64,000 nucleotides of DNA from Rhodospirillales bacterium (GCA_014323865.1 JACONG010000010.1:1-64000), one strand, 5' to 3'. Numbered from the stretch's first letter, positions 33,276 to 59,440 are shown. Translations and numbers: made by a program. Notes: a model not told the origin generated them from the letters alone.

Positions 33276-34821
33276 AAGTGCATCCGGAACCGCTCGCGGA
33301 TCGTGCGGTCGATGTCGGGCGGGATATGTAATGGCGGGGGTGCAGCGAGCAGCTCGCGGGTGCGCTCGCGTGCCTGCTCCAGCAGATCGGGCGTGCGCTG
33401 TGCGTCCCATTCCTGCGGCGTCTGGCGGTCGCCGAGCGTGGGATAGAAGTAGTCGTCCTGCATGCGTTCCAGGGTCTGGGCATGGCCGAGGAAGTGACCG
33501 GGGCCGTCGATGCAGACATCCCGGATGGTCTCGAACGACAGCGTCTCGTCACTGACCTCAATGCCGCGTGTCGCGCGCATGACGGCACCGATGAGGTCGT
33601 TGTCGAGCACGAAGCTCTCGAGCGAACAGGCCAGCAGCGAGCCATACATGCCGGCGGCCTCGTAGATCAGGTTCGCACCTGCGAGCGCACTCAGGAGCTC
33701 GGTGTAGCCCTTCTCGTAGCCCGCCTGGAATCCGGCATCTTGGAATCAGTCATGCCTGCCGAGACCGCGCAGGGGATGCCATAGTGCTGAGCCATCTGGG
33801 CGCAGGCGGCCATCAGCAGACCCTGTTCCGCACTGCCGCCTGACATGGCGCCTGTGCGCAGGTCCGAGACGAAGGGCAGGGCACCGAACAGCGCAGGATG
33901 ACCCGGTCGCAGCAAGTTCACATAAAGCAGCCCCGCCAGAACCTCGGCGGTTTGCAGTGCGATCGCGCCGGCAAGCGCCGCCGGGCTGGTGGCACCTGCC
34001 TGTCCAGCGGATACGAGCTTCAGGGGCACACCCGTGTCGCAGGAGAGTTCGATGACGCCGAGCGCCTCCTCGGCGAACTTGAGCGGTGGCACGATAAAAC
34101 AAGTCGAAACGCACAGGAACGGACGCGCGCGAAAGGCGTCTTCGCCGCCGGCGATGCAGTGCACGATGTCGAGGGCGTCCGCGAGATGCTCCTGGTTGCC
34201 GAAGCTGGTGCCGACGTGTTTGGCCGTGCCGGCCAGGCATGCATACGCGGTGTTGAGGTCCATCTCGCGGGGGTCGGTGATGTCGCGCGCCACCACCGTT
34301 CGCTGGAACATGTGGATATTGGGCAGCGCATTGGCAAGCCGCGCCATGTCGTAGAGGTCGCGTGCCGTCGAATCGCGGATCGTCCGGCTTTCGGTATCGA
34401 CGATGTGAACCGCCGCACCCGAGGTCCCGAGATGAATGCGTGTGGCCGAAGGGTCGATGTCGTGGGCCGGATCCTGGGCATGAAGCTTGAAGTCGCGACC
34501 CGCCGTCGCCAGCACGGCCTCGGAGACCTCTTGCGGGATCAAGAGACGGCCATCGTTGGTCAGGCGGCCACCAGCAGCCTCGAAGGTCGCAATGCTGCGG
34601 GGTGTCGCATCGCGCAGGCCGATCTCAGCAAGAATGCGTAGTGCGGTCTCGTGGACGGCCTGCACATCGTCGCGTCTCAGGGGTTTGTAGCGGCCGCCGT
34701 TGATGCCGGGCCAGATCGCACTCGTCGGGCCCTTGCCGGCACCGTCGATACGCTCAGCGCGTCGGGCGGATCGTCCGCCGCGCCGTCTGTGAGACTCCTG
34801 TGAAACAGCCGCGTCGGTCAT
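33272..34821 (-). pseudogene. Trimethylamine methyltransferase-like (MttB family) gene with one frameshift
   Basis: A ~515-residue MttB-superfamily protein interrupted once. From ATG 34821 it reads normally through LGTSGAAVHIVDTESRTIRD, MDLNTAYACLAGTAKHVGTS, SAGQAGATSPAALAGAIALQ to SAGMTDSKMPDS, then loses one C near 33743 (GATTCCAGGC for GATTCCCAGGC) and continues in another frame as MYGSLLACSLESFVLDNDLI to the stop at 33272. No amber codon occurs at the pyrrolysine position, so it is the non-Pyl type. Start overlaps the stop of the PrpD-family gene (ATGA). Confidence 0.8.
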
Positions 34822-48547: not shown

Positions 48548-49778
48548 TCAAGGATCGGTCCCCGGCATCACGTAGCCTGCGCGGTAGGTCGCAGCGATCT
48601 GCTGCAGGCAGGCGTCGCGCGTCATGTCGTTGGCAAAGCGCGACGGGCGGACAATTGGCAGCGGATAGGGCTCGACGCCGTCGACCATCCAGTCTGCGAG
48701 AAACCTGCCGGAGCCGCCACCGGTGCCGATCCCGATGGCGAAGCCGGCGGCAAGCCACAGGCCGGGGTGGCTCTCGACCGGCCCGAGCATGGGACAGCCG
48801 TCCGGCGCATAGCAGATCGGGCCGTTGTTGACTGTCTTGATGCCGGCACGTCCGAAGGCCGGCAGGCGCTCCATCACCCGCACAAGGTGCGGCTCGAGCC
48901 GCTCCGTGTCGGGCGACAGAAGCGCGTTGGTGAAGTCGGGCGGAATGCCGTCGATCGCCCAGAACTTCGGCTCGGACTCGTAGACCCCGCACAGAAAGCC
49001 CCCGCGCTCCTGCCGCGTGTTCGACGGCACCCAGGGATCGCGCACCGTCGGGACCTCGAAATCGAGCGCTTGCAGTTCCGGTACGGTGTCGGTGATGACC
49101 TCGTGATGCTCCAACGCATAGAGCGGAAGGTTGAGCCCGAGCGGTGCGACGAGCTCCCGGGTCCAGAAGCTCGCGGCCAGGACGACGTGTTCAGCGTGCA
49201 CCATACCGTCATCGGTCTCGAGCTCCCAGCCGTCGCCGGCTTGCCGGATCGCGTGGACGTGGCAGTGACGTTTGACCCCGGGCGCCCCGCTTGCGTGCTG
49301 CCGCAGCAAGGGCGTGGGTTGCGCCCGAGGAGTCACAGTGTCCGTCGGTCGGCGTATGGGCGGCGCCGAACAGACATTCGACATTGAGCAGCGGATGAAT
49401 CTCGGCGACTTCTGCCGGTCCGATCACGTGATAGGGAACGCCCATCTCCTCGTACATCGGCACGAGGCGCTGATAGGCCGCGAGTTCCGCCGCACTGGTC
49501 GCAAGCCGCAGGCTGCCCGCCGGGTGGAAGCCGACCGACGGGTCCGATTCCGTCTCAGTCTCAAGATAGGTTGCCACGGACTCGACGAACAGTCGGGTGA
49601 TGCTGGTGTAGTGGCCGAAGAAGGTAGCGTTCCCGGCGGCGTGCCAGGTCGATCCCGATGTCAGCGCGTGTCGCTCGAGCAGCAGCGTGTCGGTCCAGCC
49701 GCGTTTGGCAAGGGCGAACAGCACACTGCCGCCGACGATGCCGCCACCGACGATGGCGACCCTGACGCGGTCGGTCAT
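48548..49778 (-). pseudogene. FAD-dependent amine oxidoreductase (DAO family) with one frameshift
   Basis: From ATG 49778, VRVAIVGGGIVGGSVLFALA is a dinucleotide-binding loop, followed by ERHALTSGSTWHAAGNATFF as in dimethylglycine/sarcosine dehydrogenases. The frame shifts near 49290 (one extra base in a GGGGCGCCCGGGG run) and continues AEHVVLAASFWTRELVAPLG to AAGFAIGIGTGGGSGRFLAD and a stop at 48548. The folate-binding C-terminal domain of full-length dimethylglycine dehydrogenase is absent. Overlaps the mttB-like gene stop (ATGA), suggesting sequential demethylation in one pathway. Confidence 0.75.
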
Positions 49779-51334
49779 GCGGCTGTGTCCCTCAGCCAGA
49801 CGGGATCGAGCATGATCGGGAATTGCTCACGGATGCGGGCGTCGGTCTTGGCGTCGATCTGGACCGGCATGTGGTTCGCAAGGACCGAGCGGGCATGCTC
49901 GGTGGCGCGATCCCACATGTCCTGCGAGCCCGCATCCATCCAGTCGTCGGGCGAGGACCGATCCGCGTAGCGCGGGTAGATGTATTCGGTCTCCATCAGC
50001 TCCATGGTTTGCTGCGCGCCGAGATAATGGCCGGGCCCATCGACGGTTTCGGCGACCACGTCGACCGACAAAGTCTCGTCGGTCACCTCAATGCCGCGCG
50101 CGATCCGGCGGATCACGCTCAGCATCTCGTCGTCGATGATCAGCGCCTCATGGGAGCAACCGAGCAGGCTCGCGAGCATACCCGCCGACTCCCAGACGAA
50201 GCCGCCGCCCGACATGGCCGCCGTGGCCATGGTGAGGCCCTTCTCGAAGCCTGCCTGGTTATCCGGCAGCTTTGAGTCGGTCATGCCGGAGCCGCAGCCT
50301 CCCGGGATGCCATAGAACGCCGCCATCTGCCCGGCGCCAGCGCAAAGCAGGGCCTGCTCGCCGCCGCCGCCGCTGAAGGCGCCGGTCCGGAGATCAGAGA
50401 CAAAGAGCCAATTGCCCATGGCGACGGGATAGCCGGGGCTCAGCATGTTGACGATGCAGAGCGAGGCCAGCGATTCCGCACAACCCTGGGCCAGCGCACC
50501 CGCCAGCGCGGCAGGCGAGGTCGCACCGGCCTGCGGTCCCGTCAGGCAATGGAGCGGCATGCCGATGTCGATCGCCGCGCAGGCCGCATCCAAGCTGTCC
50601 TGAGAGAAGGTCATGGGCGAGACCACGGTGGTCGCGTGGATCGTGCAGAACGGTCGTTTGGCGAAGGCGCCGTCACCGCCTGCCAGAAGATCGAGCATCG
50701 GGAGCGAGGCAGTGACGTTTTCGCCGTTCGCATAGCTGGTGGCGATGTGTTTCTTCGTGCCCGCCGCGCAGGCGTAGATCGAGTTGATGTCGAAGGCGAA
50801 GACGTCCTCGACGTCCGTGATCACCACGGGGCGGGTGATCCACTGCAGGTTCTCTAGCGTGTTGCAGACCCGGGCGATATCGTAGAGGTCGCGCAGGGTG
50901 CTGGGCCGATACTGGCGGGTGTCGATGTCGAGTATCTTCACGGCCGCGCCGCCTGTGCAGAAGTTCACCGTGCCGTTGCGCGCTTCGAAGTCGTATGCGG
51001 GATCGCGTCCGTGCACCACGTAACTCTTTGCCGCGCCGGCGAGCAGGTCCTCGACCAAGGCACGCGGAAAGAGGAGGCGGCCCGACTCCGAGAGCGAGCA
51101 GCCTGCCGCGAGCGCGGTCTCCTGAACACGGTCCGTCGGGGTTGCCATCCCGACCGTTTCCAGCAGGGTCAGCGCGGCGTCATGAACACGCGCGACGTCG
51201 CCGTCGCTGAGAGGCCGGAAGACCTGGGCCAACGGACTTCCCGCGACCATGTCCGTCGACTGGCGCCGGGACTCGCGGTCCCGGCGACGCTTTTCGCGTC
51301 CTCGACGGGCAACGGAGGTGTTCGTATCGGTCAT
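49775..51334 (-). CDS. Trimethylamine methyltransferase-like protein (MttB superfamily)
   Basis: 519 residues from ATG 51334 (MTDTNTSVARRGREKRRRDR); longer in-frame extensions upstream lack support. MttB-family blocks: NFCTGGAAVKILDIDTRQYR, YACAAGTKKHIATSYANGEN, GPQAGATSPAALAGALAQGC, VSDLRTGAFSGGGGEQALLC and GSGMTDSKLPDNQAGFEKGL. No amber codon interrupts it, so it is a non-pyrrolysine homologue, a class that includes glycine betaine:corrinoid methyltransferases. No corrinoid protein gene is nearby. Substrate: probably a quaternary amine, from family and neighbours only. Confidence 0.88.
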   Translation of the reverse strand: MTDTNTSVARRGREKRRRDRESRRQSTDMVAGSPLAQVFRPLSDGDVARVHDAALTLLETVGMATPTDRVQETALAAGCSLSESGRLLFPRALVEDLLAGAAKSYVVHGRDPAYDFEARNGTVNFCTGGAAVKILDIDTRQYRPSTLRDLYDIARVCNTLENLQWITRPVVITDVEDVFAFDINSIYACAAGTKKHIATSYANGENVTASLPMLDLLAGGDGAFAKRPFCTIHATTVVSPMTFSQDSLDAACAAIDIGMPLHCLTGPQAGATSPAALAGALAQGCAESLASLCIVNMLSPGYPVAMGNWLFVSDLRTGAFSGGGGEQALLCAGAGQMAAFYGIPGGCGSGMTDSKLPDNQAGFEKGLTMATAAMSGGGFVWESAGMLASLLGCSHEALIIDDEMLSVIRRIARGIEVTDETLSVDVVAETVDGPGHYLGAQQTMELMETEYIYPRYADRSSPDDWMDAGSQDMWDRATEHARSVLANHMPVQIDAKTDARIREQFPIMLDPVWLRDTAA

Positions 51335-51479
51335 TGACAGCGGTCCTGTGGCGATCTCTCGGAGCGTGACGAATAGTCTGAATCGCGATCGAGGACCGCA
51401 GAAGGAGCCAGATGATGACAATAATGGGTCCAGGCGTGGGGTGCAGTCAGCGATCACCTTGCGCCAGAATTCCACGGCC

Positions 51480-52218: not shown

Positions 52219-52860
52219 TCAACCTGCCGGACTGAGCTGCGCGAGCTTGATCGGTCCCGGTGAGACCCAGAAGCAGAAGGTGAAGAGCGGCGTTTTCTGC
52301 GTGATCATCTCATGCGGCAGCCACGGCGTGTTGTGGATCGGCTCGCCCGCGGGTCGCAGCCTTGGTTTCTCGTCGTCCTGGCTCCACAGCGTGTCGCCGC
52401 CGAAGGGAAAGTAGATTTCCTCGGCCTCGTGATAGTAGCGCGGATAGTGGCGCCCCGGGCCGATCACGAAGAAGGCGGCGATCACCCGGTCGTGCGGGAT
52501 CAGCGCGTCGTAGCCCAGAATGTTGGCGTAGCAGTAGTTCGCCATGTACTCATCGCCGAGCGCCTCGCGGTAATGCTCAGTGCGGATCCACCGCAAATGC
52601 GGTTCGAAGGCTGCGAAGGCGCGGGCGAGATCCGCCATCGGTCCGTCCTCGGCCATCGCAAGGGCGCTCTTGAGGTGACGGCAGCCGGGCAGGCGCAGAG
52701 GTTCCGGCGGCGGCCATGGCAGGTCGGCTCCTTCAAGGGCCTCGATCAACGTCCCGATGGGGCGCGCCTGATCGGGGCAGGCACCCGCCCGCTCGTTTAG
52801 GAACCGCAGAATCTTTGTGCGCAGAACGCCGAAGCTGGTCTCGATGGACATGCCATTCAT
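52219..52860 (-). CDS. DMSP lyase-like cupin (DddL/DddQ family)
   Basis: 213 residues. The C-terminal cupin reads FFVIGPGRHYPRYYHEAEEI, YFPFGGDTLWS, then IHNTPWLPHEM and FTFCFWVSPG, following the DMSP-lyase pattern (YP.H.H.AEE.Y, H....PH.M). Such enzymes split dimethylsulfoniopropionate into DMS and acrylate. One expected metal-binding His is Tyr here (PRYYH instead of P.H.H; codon TAC for CAC), so activity is uncertain. The start ATG overlaps the peroxiredoxin stop by four bases. Confidence 0.65.
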   Translation of the reverse strand: MNGMSIETSFGVLRTKILRFLNERAGACPDQARPIGTLIEALEGADLPWPPPEPLRLPGCRHLKSALAMAEDGPMADLARAFAAFEPHLRWIRTEHYREALGDEYMANYCYANILGYDALIPHDRVIAAFFVIGPGRHYPRYYHEAEEIYFPFGGDTLWSQDDEKPRLRPAGEPIHNTPWLPHEMITQKTPLFTFCFWVSPGPIKLAQLSPAG

Positions 52861-54153: not shown

Positions 54154-54252
54154 CGGCGTTAACCCTACCACCAAGAATTCCGCATTTGTCGCCCGTGGTG
54201 CCTGACGACTAGGCTTAATCTTCCTCATGCCTGACACGGGCAGGCTGTGACG

Positions 54253-55815
54253 ATGGACGAGGCCCAGACCGCGAAACCGCAACGCCGGGGACGCAGTGCG
54301 CGCCATGCCGAGCGCGCCGCGCCGCTTCCGCCCGACGAACGGGCGGTTTGGCCTGGCATGTCCGGCGGGCGTTACCAGCCGCTCTCCGACAGCGATGTGG
54401 CACAGGTCCAGGAGGCTGTCATGCGGCTGCTGGAGGACATCGGATTCGCCGGCGCGATTCCGCCGATGATTGAGCGCGTGTCCGAGCGTGGCGGCTGGGT
54501 CTGCGAGCACGGGCGGCTTCACTTTCCCCGCGCCCTCGTCGAGGACATCCTGGCGCGTAGCCGGAAGCGTTTCGTTGCGCACGGTCAGACCCCGGAGCAC
54601 GACCTTGAGATCGCCGACGGTCGCGTGCATTTCGGTTCCGGTGGCGCCTCGCCCAACATCGTCGACCTGGACACCGGGCTTTATCGCGGGGCGAACCTGG
54701 CCGATCTTTACGATGTCGCTCGCATTGTCGACACGCTGCCCAACATCCATTTCTACGACCGCTCGCTCGTCGCCCGTGACGTGGAGGACGTGCGCGCGTT
54801 CGATCTCAACACCGCCTACGCCATCCTCTCGGGCACGGCCAAGCACGTCGGCACCAGCATCACGGTGGCGGACAACGTTGAGGATGTCGTAGCGCTGTTC
54901 GACACGGTCGCGGGCGGCGAGGGTCGGTACCGCAAGCGGCCATTCGCCATGCTGCTGTCCTGCCATGTCGTTCCGCCCATGCGCTTCGCCGAAGAGGCGC
55001 TTTGGGTCATCGAAAAGGCGATCCCGCTCGGCATGCCGGTCATGCTGGTCTCGGCCGGGCAGGCCGGAGCGACAGCGCCGGTCAAACTCGCCGGCACGGT
55101 CGCCCAGGCCGTCGCCGAGGCGCTCGCGGGACTGGTCTACTGCAATCTGATCGACCCAGAAGCTACTGTTATCACTGGCCCCAAACCGATCGTCTCGGAT
55201 CTGCGCACGGGTGCGATGTGCGGCGGCAGCGGCGAGCAGGCGATCGTCGCTGCGGCGACCACCCAGATGGCGCGCCAATACGGCATTCCCTGCAGCGTGA
55301 TGGCGGGGATCTCCGACTCCAAGATCCCGGACGCCCAATCGGGCTATGAGAAGGGCTACACGATCACGCTGGCAGCCCAGGCCGGCTGCTCCATGGTAAC
55401 CCAGACCTGCGGCATGCAGGCAAGTCTTCTGGGACTGACGATGGAAGGTTACGTCATCGACAACGACATGCTGGGTGCCATCCTGAGAACCGTGCGCGGC
55501 ATCGAGGTCAGCGATGAAAGCCTCTCGGTCGAGACCATTCGTGATGTGGTGCTGGGCGAGGGGCACTATCTCGGCCACGCCCAGACGCTCGAGAACATGA
55601 CCCGCGACTATCTCTACCCCGACATCGCCGACCGCCTCTCGCCCTCCGACTGGGAGGAGAAGGGGGGTAGGGACATCCGCGACCGGGCCAGGGACGAGGT
55701 CCGGCGCATCCTCGCCTCGCACTATCCCCGCCACATCGACGATGCGACCGATCGGCGTCTGCGCGAGCGTTTCCCGATCAGGCTGCCGCGGGAGCGAATG
55801 GCTCCGGCACCATGA
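54253..55815 (+). CDS. Trimethylamine methyltransferase-like protein (MttB superfamily), third copy
   Basis: 520 residues from ATG 54253 (GTG 54247 is an alternative). Same architecture as the copy at 49775: basic N-terminus, VHFGSGGASPNIVDLDTGLY, AYAILSGTAKHVGTSITVAD, SAGQAGATAPVKLAGTVAQA, VSDLRTGAMCGGSGEQAIVA and MAGISDSKIPDAQSGYEKGY. No amber codon. First gene of an operon with a 4Fe-4S flavoprotein and a TPP enzyme, joined by a four-base overlap, so it very likely acts on the same substrate chain. Confidence 0.88.
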   Translation: MDEAQTAKPQRRGRSARHAERAAPLPPDERAVWPGMSGGRYQPLSDSDVAQVQEAVMRLLEDIGFAGAIPPMIERVSERGGWVCEHGRLHFPRALVEDILARSRKRFVAHGQTPEHDLEIADGRVHFGSGGASPNIVDLDTGLYRGANLADLYDVARIVDTLPNIHFYDRSLVARDVEDVRAFDLNTAYAILSGTAKHVGTSITVADNVEDVVALFDTVAGGEGRYRKRPFAMLLSCHVVPPMRFAEEALWVIEKAIPLGMPVMLVSAGQAGATAPVKLAGTVAQAVAEALAGLVYCNLIDPEATVITGPKPIVSDLRTGAMCGGSGEQAIVAAATTQMARQYGIPCSVMAGISDSKIPDAQSGYEKGYTITLAAQAGCSMVTQTCGMQASLLGLTMEGYVIDNDMLGAILRTVRGIEVSDESLSVETIRDVVLGEGHYLGHAQTLENMTRDYLYPDIADRLSPSDWEEKGGRDIRDRARDEVRRILASHYPRHIDDATDRRLRERFPIRLPRERMAPAP

Positions 55816-57761
55816 ATGCGGCGTTTCCCAACCTCTTCTCGCCGGTCGATCTGGGAACCACCAGGGTTCGCAACCGGATCGTTTCGACCGGCCACCACAC
55901 GCACCACTCCCATGGTGTGCCATCGGATCGTTACATCGCCTATCAGGAAGCGCGTGCGCGGGGCGGTGCCGGACTGATCGTGGCCGAGGTGGCCGGTGTT
56001 CATCAGACCGCCCATTTTGCTGACAACTTCCTGCAGGCCGACACACCCGCGTGCATCCCCGGTTACCGCCGGCTGGCCGAGGCAGTTCACGGCCACGGCG
56101 CCGCGCTGTTCGGCCAGCTCTTTCACCCGGGTCGCGAGGTGCAATCGACGCCCGACGGGACGCTCGCAACTGCCTACGCGCCATCGTCGGTGCCGAACGA
56201 ACGTTTCCACATCATGCCGCGGTCGATGTCGGACGCGTTGATCGAAGAGGTCATTGAGGGCTTTGGGCGCAGCGCCGGCCATATGGTGGAGGCCGGGCTT
56301 GATGGCGTGGAGCTGGTCGCAAGCCAGGGCTACCTGCCGGCCCAGTTTCTCAATCCCCGCCTCAACCTTCGTGAAGATTGCTGGGGCGGCTCTTTCGAGA
56401 ACCGATTTCGCTTCGTCGTGCACTGTCTTGACGCGATGCGTTCGGCCATCGGTGACCGGAGCCTGGGGATGCGCATTTCCGGCGACGAACTCGAACCGGC
56501 CCAAGGACTCAGCGCCGACGAGGTTGTCGACATCTGCGCAGTCTTGGCGCCGAAGCTCGATTACATCAGCGTGGTCGCGGGCATGTCGTCGAGCCTGGGT
56601 GCCTCAATCCATATCGCCGCACCGATGGGTGTGCCTGCGGGTTACGTCGCGCCCTACGGCCGGCGCATCAAGGAGGCCACTGGTCTGCCCGTGATTGTGA
56701 CCGGCCGTGTCAACCAGCCGCAGACGGCCGAAACAATCCTGGCATCGGGTGATGCGGATCTTTGTGGCATGACCCGTGCGATGATCTGCGACCCACAGAT
56801 GCCCGCCAAGACGCAGGCGGGTCGATTGGACGACATCAGGGCGTGCATCGCATGTAACCAGGCCTGCATCGGTCACTCGCACAAAGGCGTGCCGGTCTCC
56901 TGCATCCAGTATCCCGAAAGTGGGCGGGAGGTTGAGTTCGGCGACATCACCCCGGCTGACGCCCACAAGCACGTGATGGTGGTGGGGGGCGGTCCCGCCG
57001 GCATGAAGGCGGCTGCGGTTGCGGGGGCACGAGGCCATGACGTGACCCTGCATGAAGCTGCGGATCGCCTTGGTGGACAGGTCCTGCTGGCGCAGCGTCT
57101 GCCGGGGCGCGAGGAATTCGGCGGGATCGTTCAGAACCTTGAGCGCGAGATGCGCGAGGCCGGTGTGTCCGTCCGACTGGGATCGCATGTCGATCAGGCG
57201 ACGATCGCGTCCGACACGCCAGACGCCGTGATCGTTGCGACCGGAGGCGTGCCGTATCGCCCAGCGATCGAGGGCGAGGAGGAGGCGCATGTTGTCGACG
57301 CCTGGCAGGCGCTTGATGGCGCCAATATCGGCAACCGGATTGTCATTGCAGACTGGCGCTGTGACTGGATCGGCATCGGGCTCGCCGAGATGCTCGCGAG
57401 CTCGGGCCGTCATGTAAGGTTGATGGTCAACGGCGCGATGGCAGGCGAAATCCTCCAGCTCTACGTGCGCAATCACTACGTCGGTCGTCTTCACAGGCTG
57501 GGCGTCGAGATCCGCACCCATGCGCGGCTGTTCGGTGCCGATGCCGGCAGCGCCTACTTCCAGAACACACTGACCAACGAAGCGATTGTCGCAGACGATG
57601 TCAACACGCTGGTTCTTTCACTCGGGCAGACGCCCTGTGATGACCTCGGCGAAGCCTTGGAACGCGCGGGCATTGCCTTCACCCGTATCGGTGACTGCCT
57701 CGCCCCCCGCACTGCCGAAGAGGCGGTTCTCGAGGGCCTGCAGGCGGCCTGGGAGGTTTGA
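55812..57761 (+). CDS. Old-Yellow-Enzyme/trimethylamine-dehydrogenase-like iron-sulfur flavoprotein
   Basis: 649 residues. Residues 1-~330 are an FMN TIM barrel (NLFSPVDLGTTRVRNRIVST, GQLFHPGREVQSTPDGTLAT, ELVASQGYLPAQFLNPRLNL). A 4Fe-4S cluster follows: C345, C348, C352, C364 (CIACNQACIGHSHKGVPVSC), then an FAD/NAD domain from HVMVVGGGPAGMKAAAVAGA. This is the layout of trimethylamine dehydrogenase, dimethylamine dehydrogenase, 2,4-dienoyl-CoA reductase and betaine demethylases. Given the neighbours, an N-demethylase or C-N cleaving role is likeliest but unproven. Confidence 0.85.
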   Translation: MNAAFPNLFSPVDLGTTRVRNRIVSTGHHTHHSHGVPSDRYIAYQEARARGGAGLIVAEVAGVHQTAHFADNFLQADTPACIPGYRRLAEAVHGHGAALFGQLFHPGREVQSTPDGTLATAYAPSSVPNERFHIMPRSMSDALIEEVIEGFGRSAGHMVEAGLDGVELVASQGYLPAQFLNPRLNLREDCWGGSFENRFRFVVHCLDAMRSAIGDRSLGMRISGDELEPAQGLSADEVVDICAVLAPKLDYISVVAGMSSSLGASIHIAAPMGVPAGYVAPYGRRIKEATGLPVIVTGRVNQPQTAETILASGDADLCGMTRAMICDPQMPAKTQAGRLDDIRACIACNQACIGHSHKGVPVSCIQYPESGREVEFGDITPADAHKHVMVVGGGPAGMKAAAVAGARGHDVTLHEAADRLGGQVLLAQRLPGREEFGGIVQNLEREMREAGVSVRLGSHVDQATIASDTPDAVIVATGGVPYRPAIEGEEEAHVVDAWQALDGANIGNRIVIADWRCDWIGIGLAEMLASSGRHVRLMVNGAMAGEILQLYVRNHYVGRLHRLGVEIRTHARLFGADAGSAYFQNTLTNEAIVADDVNTLVLSLGQTPCDDLGEALERAGIAFTRIGDCLAPRTAEEAVLEGLQAAWEV

Positions 57762-59440
57762 TGAACGAACGGATCGGTGCTGGCGAAGCGGTGGTCGGCT
57801 TGCTCGAACAGGCCTGTGTCGGAACCGTCTTCGGTCTGCTCGGCGGTTCCATGCTGGAGCTTTACGACGCCCTGCGTTCGTCGGAGATTGCCTACGTCGG
57901 TACGCGGGACGAGCGGGCCGCGGGCCACATGGCCGACGGTTACGCCCGCATCACCGGTGGTCCCGGCGTCGTGCTGGGGGCGCAGGCTGGGCCCGGTGTT
58001 GCAAACCTGGTGACAGCGATCGCCGAGGCGCACTTGGCCTATTCGCCCGTCGTTGCGATTGCGGGGGCAATCTCGCGCGAGCAGGCCGGGCGTGACACGT
58101 TCCAGGAGATCGACCAGCAGGCGCTCTTTGCCCCGATCTCCAAGCGGTCGATCGTGGTCCCTGGGCCCGATCGCCTGCCTGAACTGATGGCCGAGGCCAT
58201 GCGGGTCGCGATGACCGGTCGGCGTGGTCCCGTTGTGTTGCATGTGCCGCGCGATTGCTTTGCGGCCGATGTTCCTGCCAGCACGTCGCTGCTTCATCTG
58301 CAGGCATCCGCCGGCGGGCCGTCCTGCGTACAGCTCGATGCGATCGTCGGCATGCTGCGCGACGCGCGGCGCCCGGTCCTTGTGGCCGGCGCTGGCTTCA
58401 AATGGTCGGGCGGTTCACAGGCGCTGGCCACCCTGGCCGAGGCGCTGGAGGTTCCGGTCGTGGCGTCGACAGGGCACCACGATGTCCTGCCGACCGATCA
58501 TCCGCTGCTGGCTGGCCAGGCCGGACCGCGCGGCAATCGCGCGGCAAGCGCCCTGACCCGCGATGCCGATCTGATCTTGGCGCTGGGAACACGGCTCGGT
58601 TTCAACTCGACCTTCCACAGCAATGACTATGTCGCCGCCGACGCCAGGATCGTTCAGGTCGACATCGATGCCATGGCGCTCGGCCGACACTTCCCGGTGT
58701 CGCTTGGGATCGTCGCGGATGCACGCGCGACGGCCGTCGCGCTGCACAACAGAGTGCGAGCCGAGGGTATCGATGGCGCGGCCTGGTCGTCGTGGACGTC
58801 GGCCTTCACGGCGAACCGCGAGGCGCTGAATGCCGAGCGCAGGGAAGAGGCGCGTCAGACGGGCGATCCCCTGCCGCCTGTGCGTGTCTTCGGGGAGATT
58901 CGCGAAGCACTGCCGGAGAATGTGATCGTCACGCTCGACACCGGGGCAATGTGTCTCCAAGCCGCCGACCGGATGCGGTTCGGGCAGACGCCGGGCCTCG
59001 TCACGCCGCTCGACTTCGGCCTCGTCGGCTTCGGCTACGCCGCTGCCCTGGGCGCTCAGGCGGCAGCGCCTGACAGGCCCGTCGTCTCCATCATGGGCGA
59101 CGGCGGTTTCGGCATGACGATGATCGAGATGACGACGGCCGTACAGCATGGTCTTCCGGTCGTCGCGGTCGTGCTCGACAACGGCGCCTGGGGCGCGGAG
59201 AAGGCCTATCAGCGCGACTTCTTCGATGCGCGCTATCTCGGTGCCGATCTGCTCAACCCGAGTTACCCCACCTTTGCCGAACAGATCGGCGCGAAGGGCT
59301 ACACGGCATCGGAACCGGGCGAGGTCGGCCGGATGCTCTCGGAGGCACTCGCGGCGGGTGAACCCGCCGTCATCCAAGTCGCGGTCGATCGGGAAGCGAT
59401 GTCCAGCCTGCGCAAGGACCTCTTCAGGAGACCGGTGTAG
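57761..59440 (+). CDS. Thiamine-diphosphate enzyme, acetolactate-synthase/Xsc-like
   Basis: 559 residues from ATG 57761, which shares a base with the preceding stop. N-terminal catalytic Glu in GTRDERAAGHMADGYARITG; central Rossmann domain QALATLAEALEVPVVASTGH; C-terminal TPP signature GDGGFGMTMIEMTTAVQHGL and VVLDNGAWGAEKAYQRDFFD. The WGAEK..Q stretch resembles sulfoacetaldehyde acetyltransferase (Xsc), though taurine genes and pta are absent. It probably handles a C2/C3 aldehyde or keto acid released by the upstream enzymes. Confidence 0.8.
   Translation: MNERIGAGEAVVGLLEQACVGTVFGLLGGSMLELYDALRSSEIAYVGTRDERAAGHMADGYARITGGPGVVLGAQAGPGVANLVTAIAEAHLAYSPVVAIAGAISREQAGRDTFQEIDQQALFAPISKRSIVVPGPDRLPELMAEAMRVAMTGRRGPVVLHVPRDCFAADVPASTSLLHLQASAGGPSCVQLDAIVGMLRDARRPVLVAGAGFKWSGGSQALATLAEALEVPVVASTGHHDVLPTDHPLLAGQAGPRGNRAASALTRDADLILALGTRLGFNSTFHSNDYVAADARIVQVDIDAMALGRHFPVSLGIVADARATAVALHNRVRAEGIDGAAWSSWTSAFTANREALNAERREEARQTGDPLPPVRVFGEIREALPENVIVTLDTGAMCLQAADRMRFGQTPGLVTPLDFGLVGFGYAAALGAQAAAPDRPVVSIMGDGGFGMTMIEMTTAVQHGLPVVAVVLDNGAWGAEKAYQRDFFDARYLGADLLNPSYPTFAEQIGAKGYTASEPGEVGRMLSEALAAGEPAVIQVAVDREAMSSLRKDLFRRPV

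Follow-up and report, generated by a model that had tools for sequence, protein, structure and literature searches.

The 64,000-nucleotide stretch of DNA from a Rhodospirillales bacterium analysed here (GCA_014323865.1, JACONG010000010.1:1-64000; in the following called the window) contains, at positions 54253 to 59440, three directly adjacent genes on the plus strand. The first one (54253-55815, 520 aa) encodes a corrinoid-dependent methyltransferase of the non-pyrrolysine MttB superfamily, assigned by PF06253, TIGR02369 and the MtgB structures. It is followed by a gene (55812-57761, 649 aa) for a 4Fe-4S flavoprotein of the old yellow enzyme (OYE) family, composed of an FMN barrel, a 4Fe-4S segment and FAD/NAD domains and proposed to act as amine dehydrogenase, and by a gene (57761-59440, 559 aa) for a thiamine pyrophosphate (TPP) enzyme resembling sulfoacetaldehyde acetyltransferase (Xsc), a proposed aldehyde-using lyase with domains PF02776, PF00205 and PF02775. 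Stop and start codons overlap in the sequence ATGA (55812-55815) between the MttB and OYE genes, making translational coupling of this pair likely, and by 1 bp in the sequence TGATG (57759-57763) between the OYE and TPP genes. An alternative GTG start of the MttB gene is located six bases upstream at 54247. None of the three open reading frames contains an internal stop, and the original prediction, made from the sequence alone, of three intact same-strand genes joined by 4-bp and 1-bp overlaps was borne out exactly.

The same three genes are found next to each other in at least 17 loci (the window and 16 others) of Alpha- and Gammaproteobacteria, many of them from metagenome-assembled genomes (MAGs), which agrees with the expectation that the trio is co-conserved outside this genome. 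An orthologue of the TPP enzyme with 63-77% identity is present in seven of nine other genus members and in four of six other members of the family. In a further genus member (G009), the MttB and OYE genes sit at a contig end, and hence the TPP gene has probably been cut off. A scan of named genomes added Limibaculum (from a brittle star), Hyphomicrobiales, Rhodospirillales and Gammaproteobacteria MAGs as sources. MttB orthologues in these loci share 48-87% identity, and the identities of all three proteins correlate pairwise with r = 0.82-0.90 across 16 loci; the trio is a co-inherited unit whose proteins have congruent histories. Spacing was checked in the 16 trio relatives: genes are mostly separated by -4 to +6 bp, with the 4-bp overlap of MttB and OYE kept in at least nine and a distance of at most 4 bp in 15, while in one relative an amidase gene is inserted between OYE and TPP. 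Compared with five relatives, dN/dS ratios (NG86) of 0.09-0.19 were obtained for all three genes, indicating that they are maintained under purifying selection. Several relatives carry the operon at the same chromosomal site, flanked upstream by genes for a DMSP-lyase-family protein, a peroxiredoxin and a YciB-like protein and downstream by TrcR, a quinone-reductase-like gene, YebC and RuvC (YciB, YebC and RuvC being named by eye). In the window, the DMSP-lyase-family gene (PF16867, 95 bits) occupies 52219-52860 on the minus strand beside the peroxiredoxin gene, and this pair is kept next to the trio in several relatives. The open-access literature yielded no paper on the trio, in line with the earlier statement that no characterised pathway with these genes is known.

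A different arrangement is encountered in Ruegeria, Leisingera, Shimia and other Roseobacters. Here, orthologues of MttB (51-58%) and of the TPP enzyme (57-61%) occur without an OYE between them; the intervening genes encode a HemL-like class III aminotransferase and two DAO-GcvT proteins resembling dimethylglycine dehydrogenase (DMGDH) and sarcosine dehydrogenase, sometimes together with an amidase. This layout lies on the megaplasmid of R. pomeroyi DSS-3 (SPO_RS21400-21380) and on pTHAF33_a of Ruegeria sp. THAF33. Both layouts are mutually exclusive, as no locus holds the OYE as well as the DMGDH pair. Furthermore, in seven trio genomes searched (G000, G008, G002, G010, G012, G061 and G065) no orthologue of the aminotransferase (best match 30-41%) or of the first DMGDH (41-48%) was detected, all matches being paralogues. 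In the TPP tree the Roseobacter sequences branch from within those of the trio layout, and a topology with all trio sequences on one side was rejected (AU test, p = 0.0006); the MttB tree agrees. Based on this nesting in both trees, the trio arrangement is most likely the older one, in which OYE would have been replaced once. The number of demethylases fits the number of methyl groups, since MttB and two DMGDHs account for three, followed by the transaminase. The swap suggests that OYE is a one-step stand-in for demethylases plus transaminase, converting a dimethylamine directly into the aldehyde on which the TPP enzyme acts. Neighbours common to both layouts are a GcvA-like LysR gene and a TcuA-like FAD_binding_2 protein, each found repeatedly. 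In three loci (L079, L089 and L094), the same place downstream of the TPP gene is taken by a TcuA protein of another subfamily, 34-35% identical to the usual one; this suggests that a TcuA-type oxidation matters to the pathway.

The Roseobacter cluster itself is, as far as found, uncharacterised. Its older locus tags are inferred from gene order to be SPOA0309-0313 (SPO_RS21380-21400), using as anchor SPOA0318, which we take to be methionine gamma-lyase. SPOA0309 appears as 'Sulphoacetaldehyde acetyltransferase' in a reannotation of R. pomeroyi, and SPOA0310, labelled 'glycine', was raised in late-phase co-culture with a diatom, this single expression hit being weak; nothing decisive was found on these tags in the open-access literature.

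The MttB protein of the trio scores 401 bits against PF06253 (MTTB; cut-off 25) and 336 bits against the pyrrolysine-type model TIGR02369, below its cut-off of 525; its gene has no in-frame amber codon. The nearest structures in the PDB are those of MtgB (2qne, 9yce). Altogether, the 2.8-Mb genome contains 15 MttB matches, some of them fragments, together with a single corrinoid protein of the PF02607 family (PF02607 and PF02310; C10:113844-114557). This MtgC-like protein is encoded about 54 kb from the trio on the same contig, outside the trio operon, and adjoins another MttB and a methylenetetrahydrofolate reductase; 4 kb away lies a pterin-binding gene (PF00809, C10:109648-110319). The region C10:109648-116433, in which these genes sit together, probably acts as the one hub accepting methyl groups from the many MttB paralogues of the genome. 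With corrinoid and tetrahydrofolate (H4F) partners at this distance, the assumption that the operon is a 'complete' route is not supported. In R. pomeroyi, demethylation of glycine betaine by MtgBCD, whose MtgC/MtgD arrangement this region resembles, has been demonstrated, and for the up to seven pfam06253 open reading frames per genome other methylated compounds were suggested as substrates by the authors (PMC12478193).

Further MttB copies lie on the minus strand of the window. A second paralogue (49775-51352), 46% identical to MttB of the trio, is open, and the neighbouring DAO/DMGDH-like gene (48623-49778), whose counterpart in a relative (L060:1390-2508) has an open frame, is broken into two frames here; both represent a decaying pair of MttB and demethylase. 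Another copy (33287-34719) is broken into two frames. Although these nearby paralogues decay, the trio is kept. The earlier remark that most other accessory genes are broken applies to the split MttB copy and the split DAO gene, but not to the second MttB, DMSP-lyase-family and peroxiredoxin genes, which are open.

The OYE protein matches Oxidored_FMN (PF00724, 198 bits) and Pyr_redox_2 (PF07992), and its invariant residues Cys345, Cys348, Cys352 and Cys364 are the four cysteines of the 4Fe-4S cluster, which supports that assignment. Full-length fold matches comprise exclusively 4Fe-4S members, namely 2,4-dienoyl-CoA reductase (DCR), 2-naphthoyl-CoA reductase (NCR), histamine dehydrogenase (HADH), trimethylamine dehydrogenase (TMADH) and 6-HPON oxidase; in the fold model (mean pLDDT 77, active-site loops poor), the first four rank together. 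In TMADH, Cys30 forms the 6-S-FMN link, and His172 and Asp267 are further key residues; DCR uses Tyr166 and His252 in catalysis. The full-length OYE-4Fe-4S-FAD architecture of TMADH and HADH is present in the trio proteins. Their residues differ, however, from those of TMADH: the flavin-linking position holds an invariant His29 (window 55896-55898), the catalytic Asp is replaced by Gly or Ala, and Gln or His is found at 172. With these key residues absent, an identity as TMADH proper is not supported. Nor is the catalytic pair of DCR complete, as Tyr174 matches the proton donor and Ser stands at the position of His252. His29 is a candidate specificity residue of the trio OYEs, which form one clade (84/100); in paralogues, this position is mostly Met, Asp or Gly.

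Neither sequence nor fold model by itself separates an ene-reductase from an amine dehydrogenase. DCR, followed by NCR, is the top match in sequence and fold, and Tyr174 agrees with a role as ene-reductase in an operon degrading an unsaturated methylated compound, with C-N cleavage not being involved. Such a function is nevertheless very unlikely, because His252 of DCR is not conserved and the swap for demethylases plus transaminase would be left unexplained. Gene context favours amines over C=C bonds as targets of OYE: several paralogues, which share 48-57% identity within the same genomes, adjoin HemL-like aminotransferases. Among them, L180-L183 reside in operons with a HemL-like aminotransferase, an SDR, another TPP enzyme, a JmjC_2 protein and an ABC transporter (TOBE_2 ATPase), possibly representing another undescribed amine pathway. 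With an amine as substrate, OYE could alternatively be an N-demethylase of the dimethylglycine or N-methylproline demethylase type, releasing the second methyl group as formaldehyde, after which an unlinked transaminase would make the carbonyl compound for the TPP enzyme. N-demethylases of the 4Fe-4S OYE type are known (TMADH, DgcA), the full-length fold matches TMADH and HADH, and class III transaminases are encoded elsewhere in the genome. Yet a secondary amine would be left over, and its processing would call for a third enzyme not linked to the trio; in the Roseobacter layout, by contrast, the cluster provides all steps. Several OYE paralogues adjoin HemL-like transaminases instead, and we consider this alternative improbable.

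In the TPP enzyme, the N, M and C domains of the family (PF02776, PF00205 and PF02775) are each recognised with 120-124 bits. Its best NCBIfam models are those of Xsc, but the score for TIGR03457 is 423 bits, with 676 required; for acetolactate synthase (ALS) models, 369 bits compare with a cut-off of 538. Trio and Roseobacter sequences form a clade of their own with 100% support, separate from that of true Xsc (clade supports 98-100). Its sister is a broad uncharacterised clade with 45-50% identity, followed by true Xsc, while ALS is distant. More than 30 positions are common to the trio clade and Xsc without counterpart in ALS, among them the motif WGAEK (477-481), which is invariant in both and absent in ALS. 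Both the distant branch and these residues rule out an ALS, as the original prediction had anticipated. At the same time, about 45 fixed positions separate the trio clade from Xsc, and a true Xsc is also encoded in nine of ten genomes checked, including that of the window. Differences from Xsc are seen, for example, at positions 101-102, 237, 281-282 and 309. The predicted Xsc-like nature of the enzyme is therefore upheld by tree and residues in the sense of kinship, whereas its identity as true Xsc is ruled out by the score below cut-off, the separate clade and the resident Xsc. Judged from the shared residues, the fixed differences and the resident Xsc, the enzyme probably carries out an Xsc-like type of reaction, more likely than not on a different substrate.

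A 2-oxo acid has to be considered as such a substrate, since it is compounds of this class that most TPP enzymes with this fold convert. The enzyme would then be a decarboxylase or carboligase, and an N-trimethyl amino acid would be demethylated and deaminated to the 2-oxo acid. The recurrent TcuA-like flavoprotein hints at carboxylate chemistry, and the scores of the best ALS and the best Xsc model lie no more than about 70 bits apart. On the other hand, Xsc-type rather than ALS-type residues occupy many invariant positions, the enzyme branches with Xsc, and omega- or beta-amines are the usual substrates of class III transaminases, so that this option appears unlikely. The sister clade (L096-L138, e.g., L115, L138 and L111) is widespread and uncharacterised. 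Its operons contain an LLM monooxygenase, an AA_synth protein (PF06684), an enol-lactonase-like hydrolase and an aldehyde dehydrogenase or, in Burkholderiales, a GMC oxidoreductase instead; it was left aside as belonging to another pathway.

There is about an even chance that the operon encodes the catabolism of a quaternary ammonium compound of the form R-CH2-N+(CH3)3. As its family suggests, MttB would first move one methyl group to the stand-alone MtgC-type corrinoid protein, leaving R-CH2-N(CH3)2, and the pterin-binding methyltransferase would hand this group on to H4F. OYE would then oxidise the R-side C-N bond in the manner of TMADH to give R-CHO and dimethylamine, as the swap of layouts implies. 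In Roseobacters, the same carbonyl compound would be reached by two DMGDH/GcvT-type demethylases taking the last two methyl groups and the class III aminotransferase taking the amine. Finally, by analogy to Xsc, the TPP enzyme would add to the aldehyde, expel the alpha-substituent (sulfite in case of Xsc) and release an acyl phosphate. The originally proposed order of demethylation, C-N cleavage and TPP-dependent capture best explains the replacement of OYE by two DMGDH-like demethylases and an aminotransferase, but one gammaproteobacterial MAG locus does not fit it, and the idea of an osmolyte as substrate is not supported.

Several points weigh against this route. By sequence and fold, OYE is nearest to the ene-reductases DCR and NCR, with His29 and the altered Asp and His172 positions departing from TMADH; and a second sulfoacetaldehyde enzyme would be redundant next to the resident Xsc. 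In the MAG locus mentioned (L061/L206:14411-17664), MttB (73%) and TPP (67%) genes are adjacent without a trio-type OYE. The TcuA-like flavoprotein has no role in the scheme, and the neighbourhoods searched revealed no recurrent transporter, sulfite exporter or Pta next to the cluster; Pta-domain genes exist elsewhere in nine of nine genomes checked, so that the lack of Pta beside the cluster says little. The contig of the MAG locus also carries a DMGDH (about 50%), and upstream there is a TcuA-like gene.

For the substrate, the best single guess is taurine betaine or a different 2-substituted ethyl-trimethylammonium compound; choline-like, carnitine-like and N-trimethyl amino-acid compounds are other candidates. 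Homarine is only weakly excluded, the part played in it by another enzyme (Mgd) being known from a second-hand citation. In case of taurine betaine itself, MttB would yield N,N-dimethyltaurine, OYE sulfoacetaldehyde and dimethylamine (in Roseobacters taurine, followed by transamination) and the TPP enzyme acetyl phosphate and sulfite. Every step fits chemically, Xsc is the closest named family with WGAEK and other residues kept, the Roseobacter layout reads from trimethylated to primary amine to aldehyde, and the reannotated name of SPOA0309, presumed from gene order to be the same gene, points in this direction. We still regard this specific assignment as rather unlikely, given that the true Xsc in nine of ten genomes makes a paralogue unnecessary, about 45 positions differ consistently from Xsc, the aminotransferase is HemL-like, sulfite-handling genes were not found nearby and no open-access paper was found linking the compound to these genes.

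More tentatively, and with some doubt, the operon may represent an undescribed aerobic cobalamin-dependent route for a major marine betaine, in which a new TPP lyase from a sister family of Xsc acts on an aldehyde other than sulfoacetaldehyde and one OYE does the work of two demethylases and a transaminase, the trio form belonging to invertebrate-associated and other Proteobacteria and the swapped form to Roseobacters. If true, a new family of TPP enzymes would be defined beside Xsc, and the two layouts would be a clean natural case of non-homologous chemistry being exchanged inside one pathway. Marine bacteria hold many MttB-family genes without known substrate, all apparently served by one corrinoid protein; the operon would give one such MttB a specific, testable downstream pathway, and orthologues of its MttB and TPP enzyme are clustered in R. 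pomeroyi DSS-3, a genetically tractable model.

Compared with known systems, the families of the operon are familiar ones, and what is new is the variant of a pathway that they would form. With Xsc (TIGR03457), its nearest named family, the TPP enzyme shares the fold and signature residues including WGAEK, while its score, clade and fixed differences set it apart. OYE has the domain architecture, full-length fold and YLPxQFLNP-type motif of TMADH and HADH but neither flavin-linking Cys nor catalytic Asp, and Gln or His at 172; it resembles DCR and NCR in sequence, fold, cluster cysteines and the equivalent Tyr, but differs in the missing His252 and in its context of amine metabolism. The Roseobacter cluster has orthologous MttB and TPP enzymes, a similar regulator and a TcuA-like neighbour in common with the trio, yet contains a HemL-like transaminase and two DAO-GcvT proteins in place of OYE. 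The closest characterised counterpart of the first step is MtgBCD of R. pomeroyi and D. hafniense (PMC12478193), which likewise combines an MttB-family substrate module with a stand-alone corrinoid protein and H4F as methyl acceptor in aerobic marine Alphaproteobacteria, and the genome of the window encodes an MtgC-like protein, adjacent to a further MttB, together with a pterin-binding partner. In contrast to MtgB, however, MttB of the trio is a different paralogue, unlinked to mtgC, and its operon partners, an OYE and a TPP enzyme, are missing from MtgBCD.

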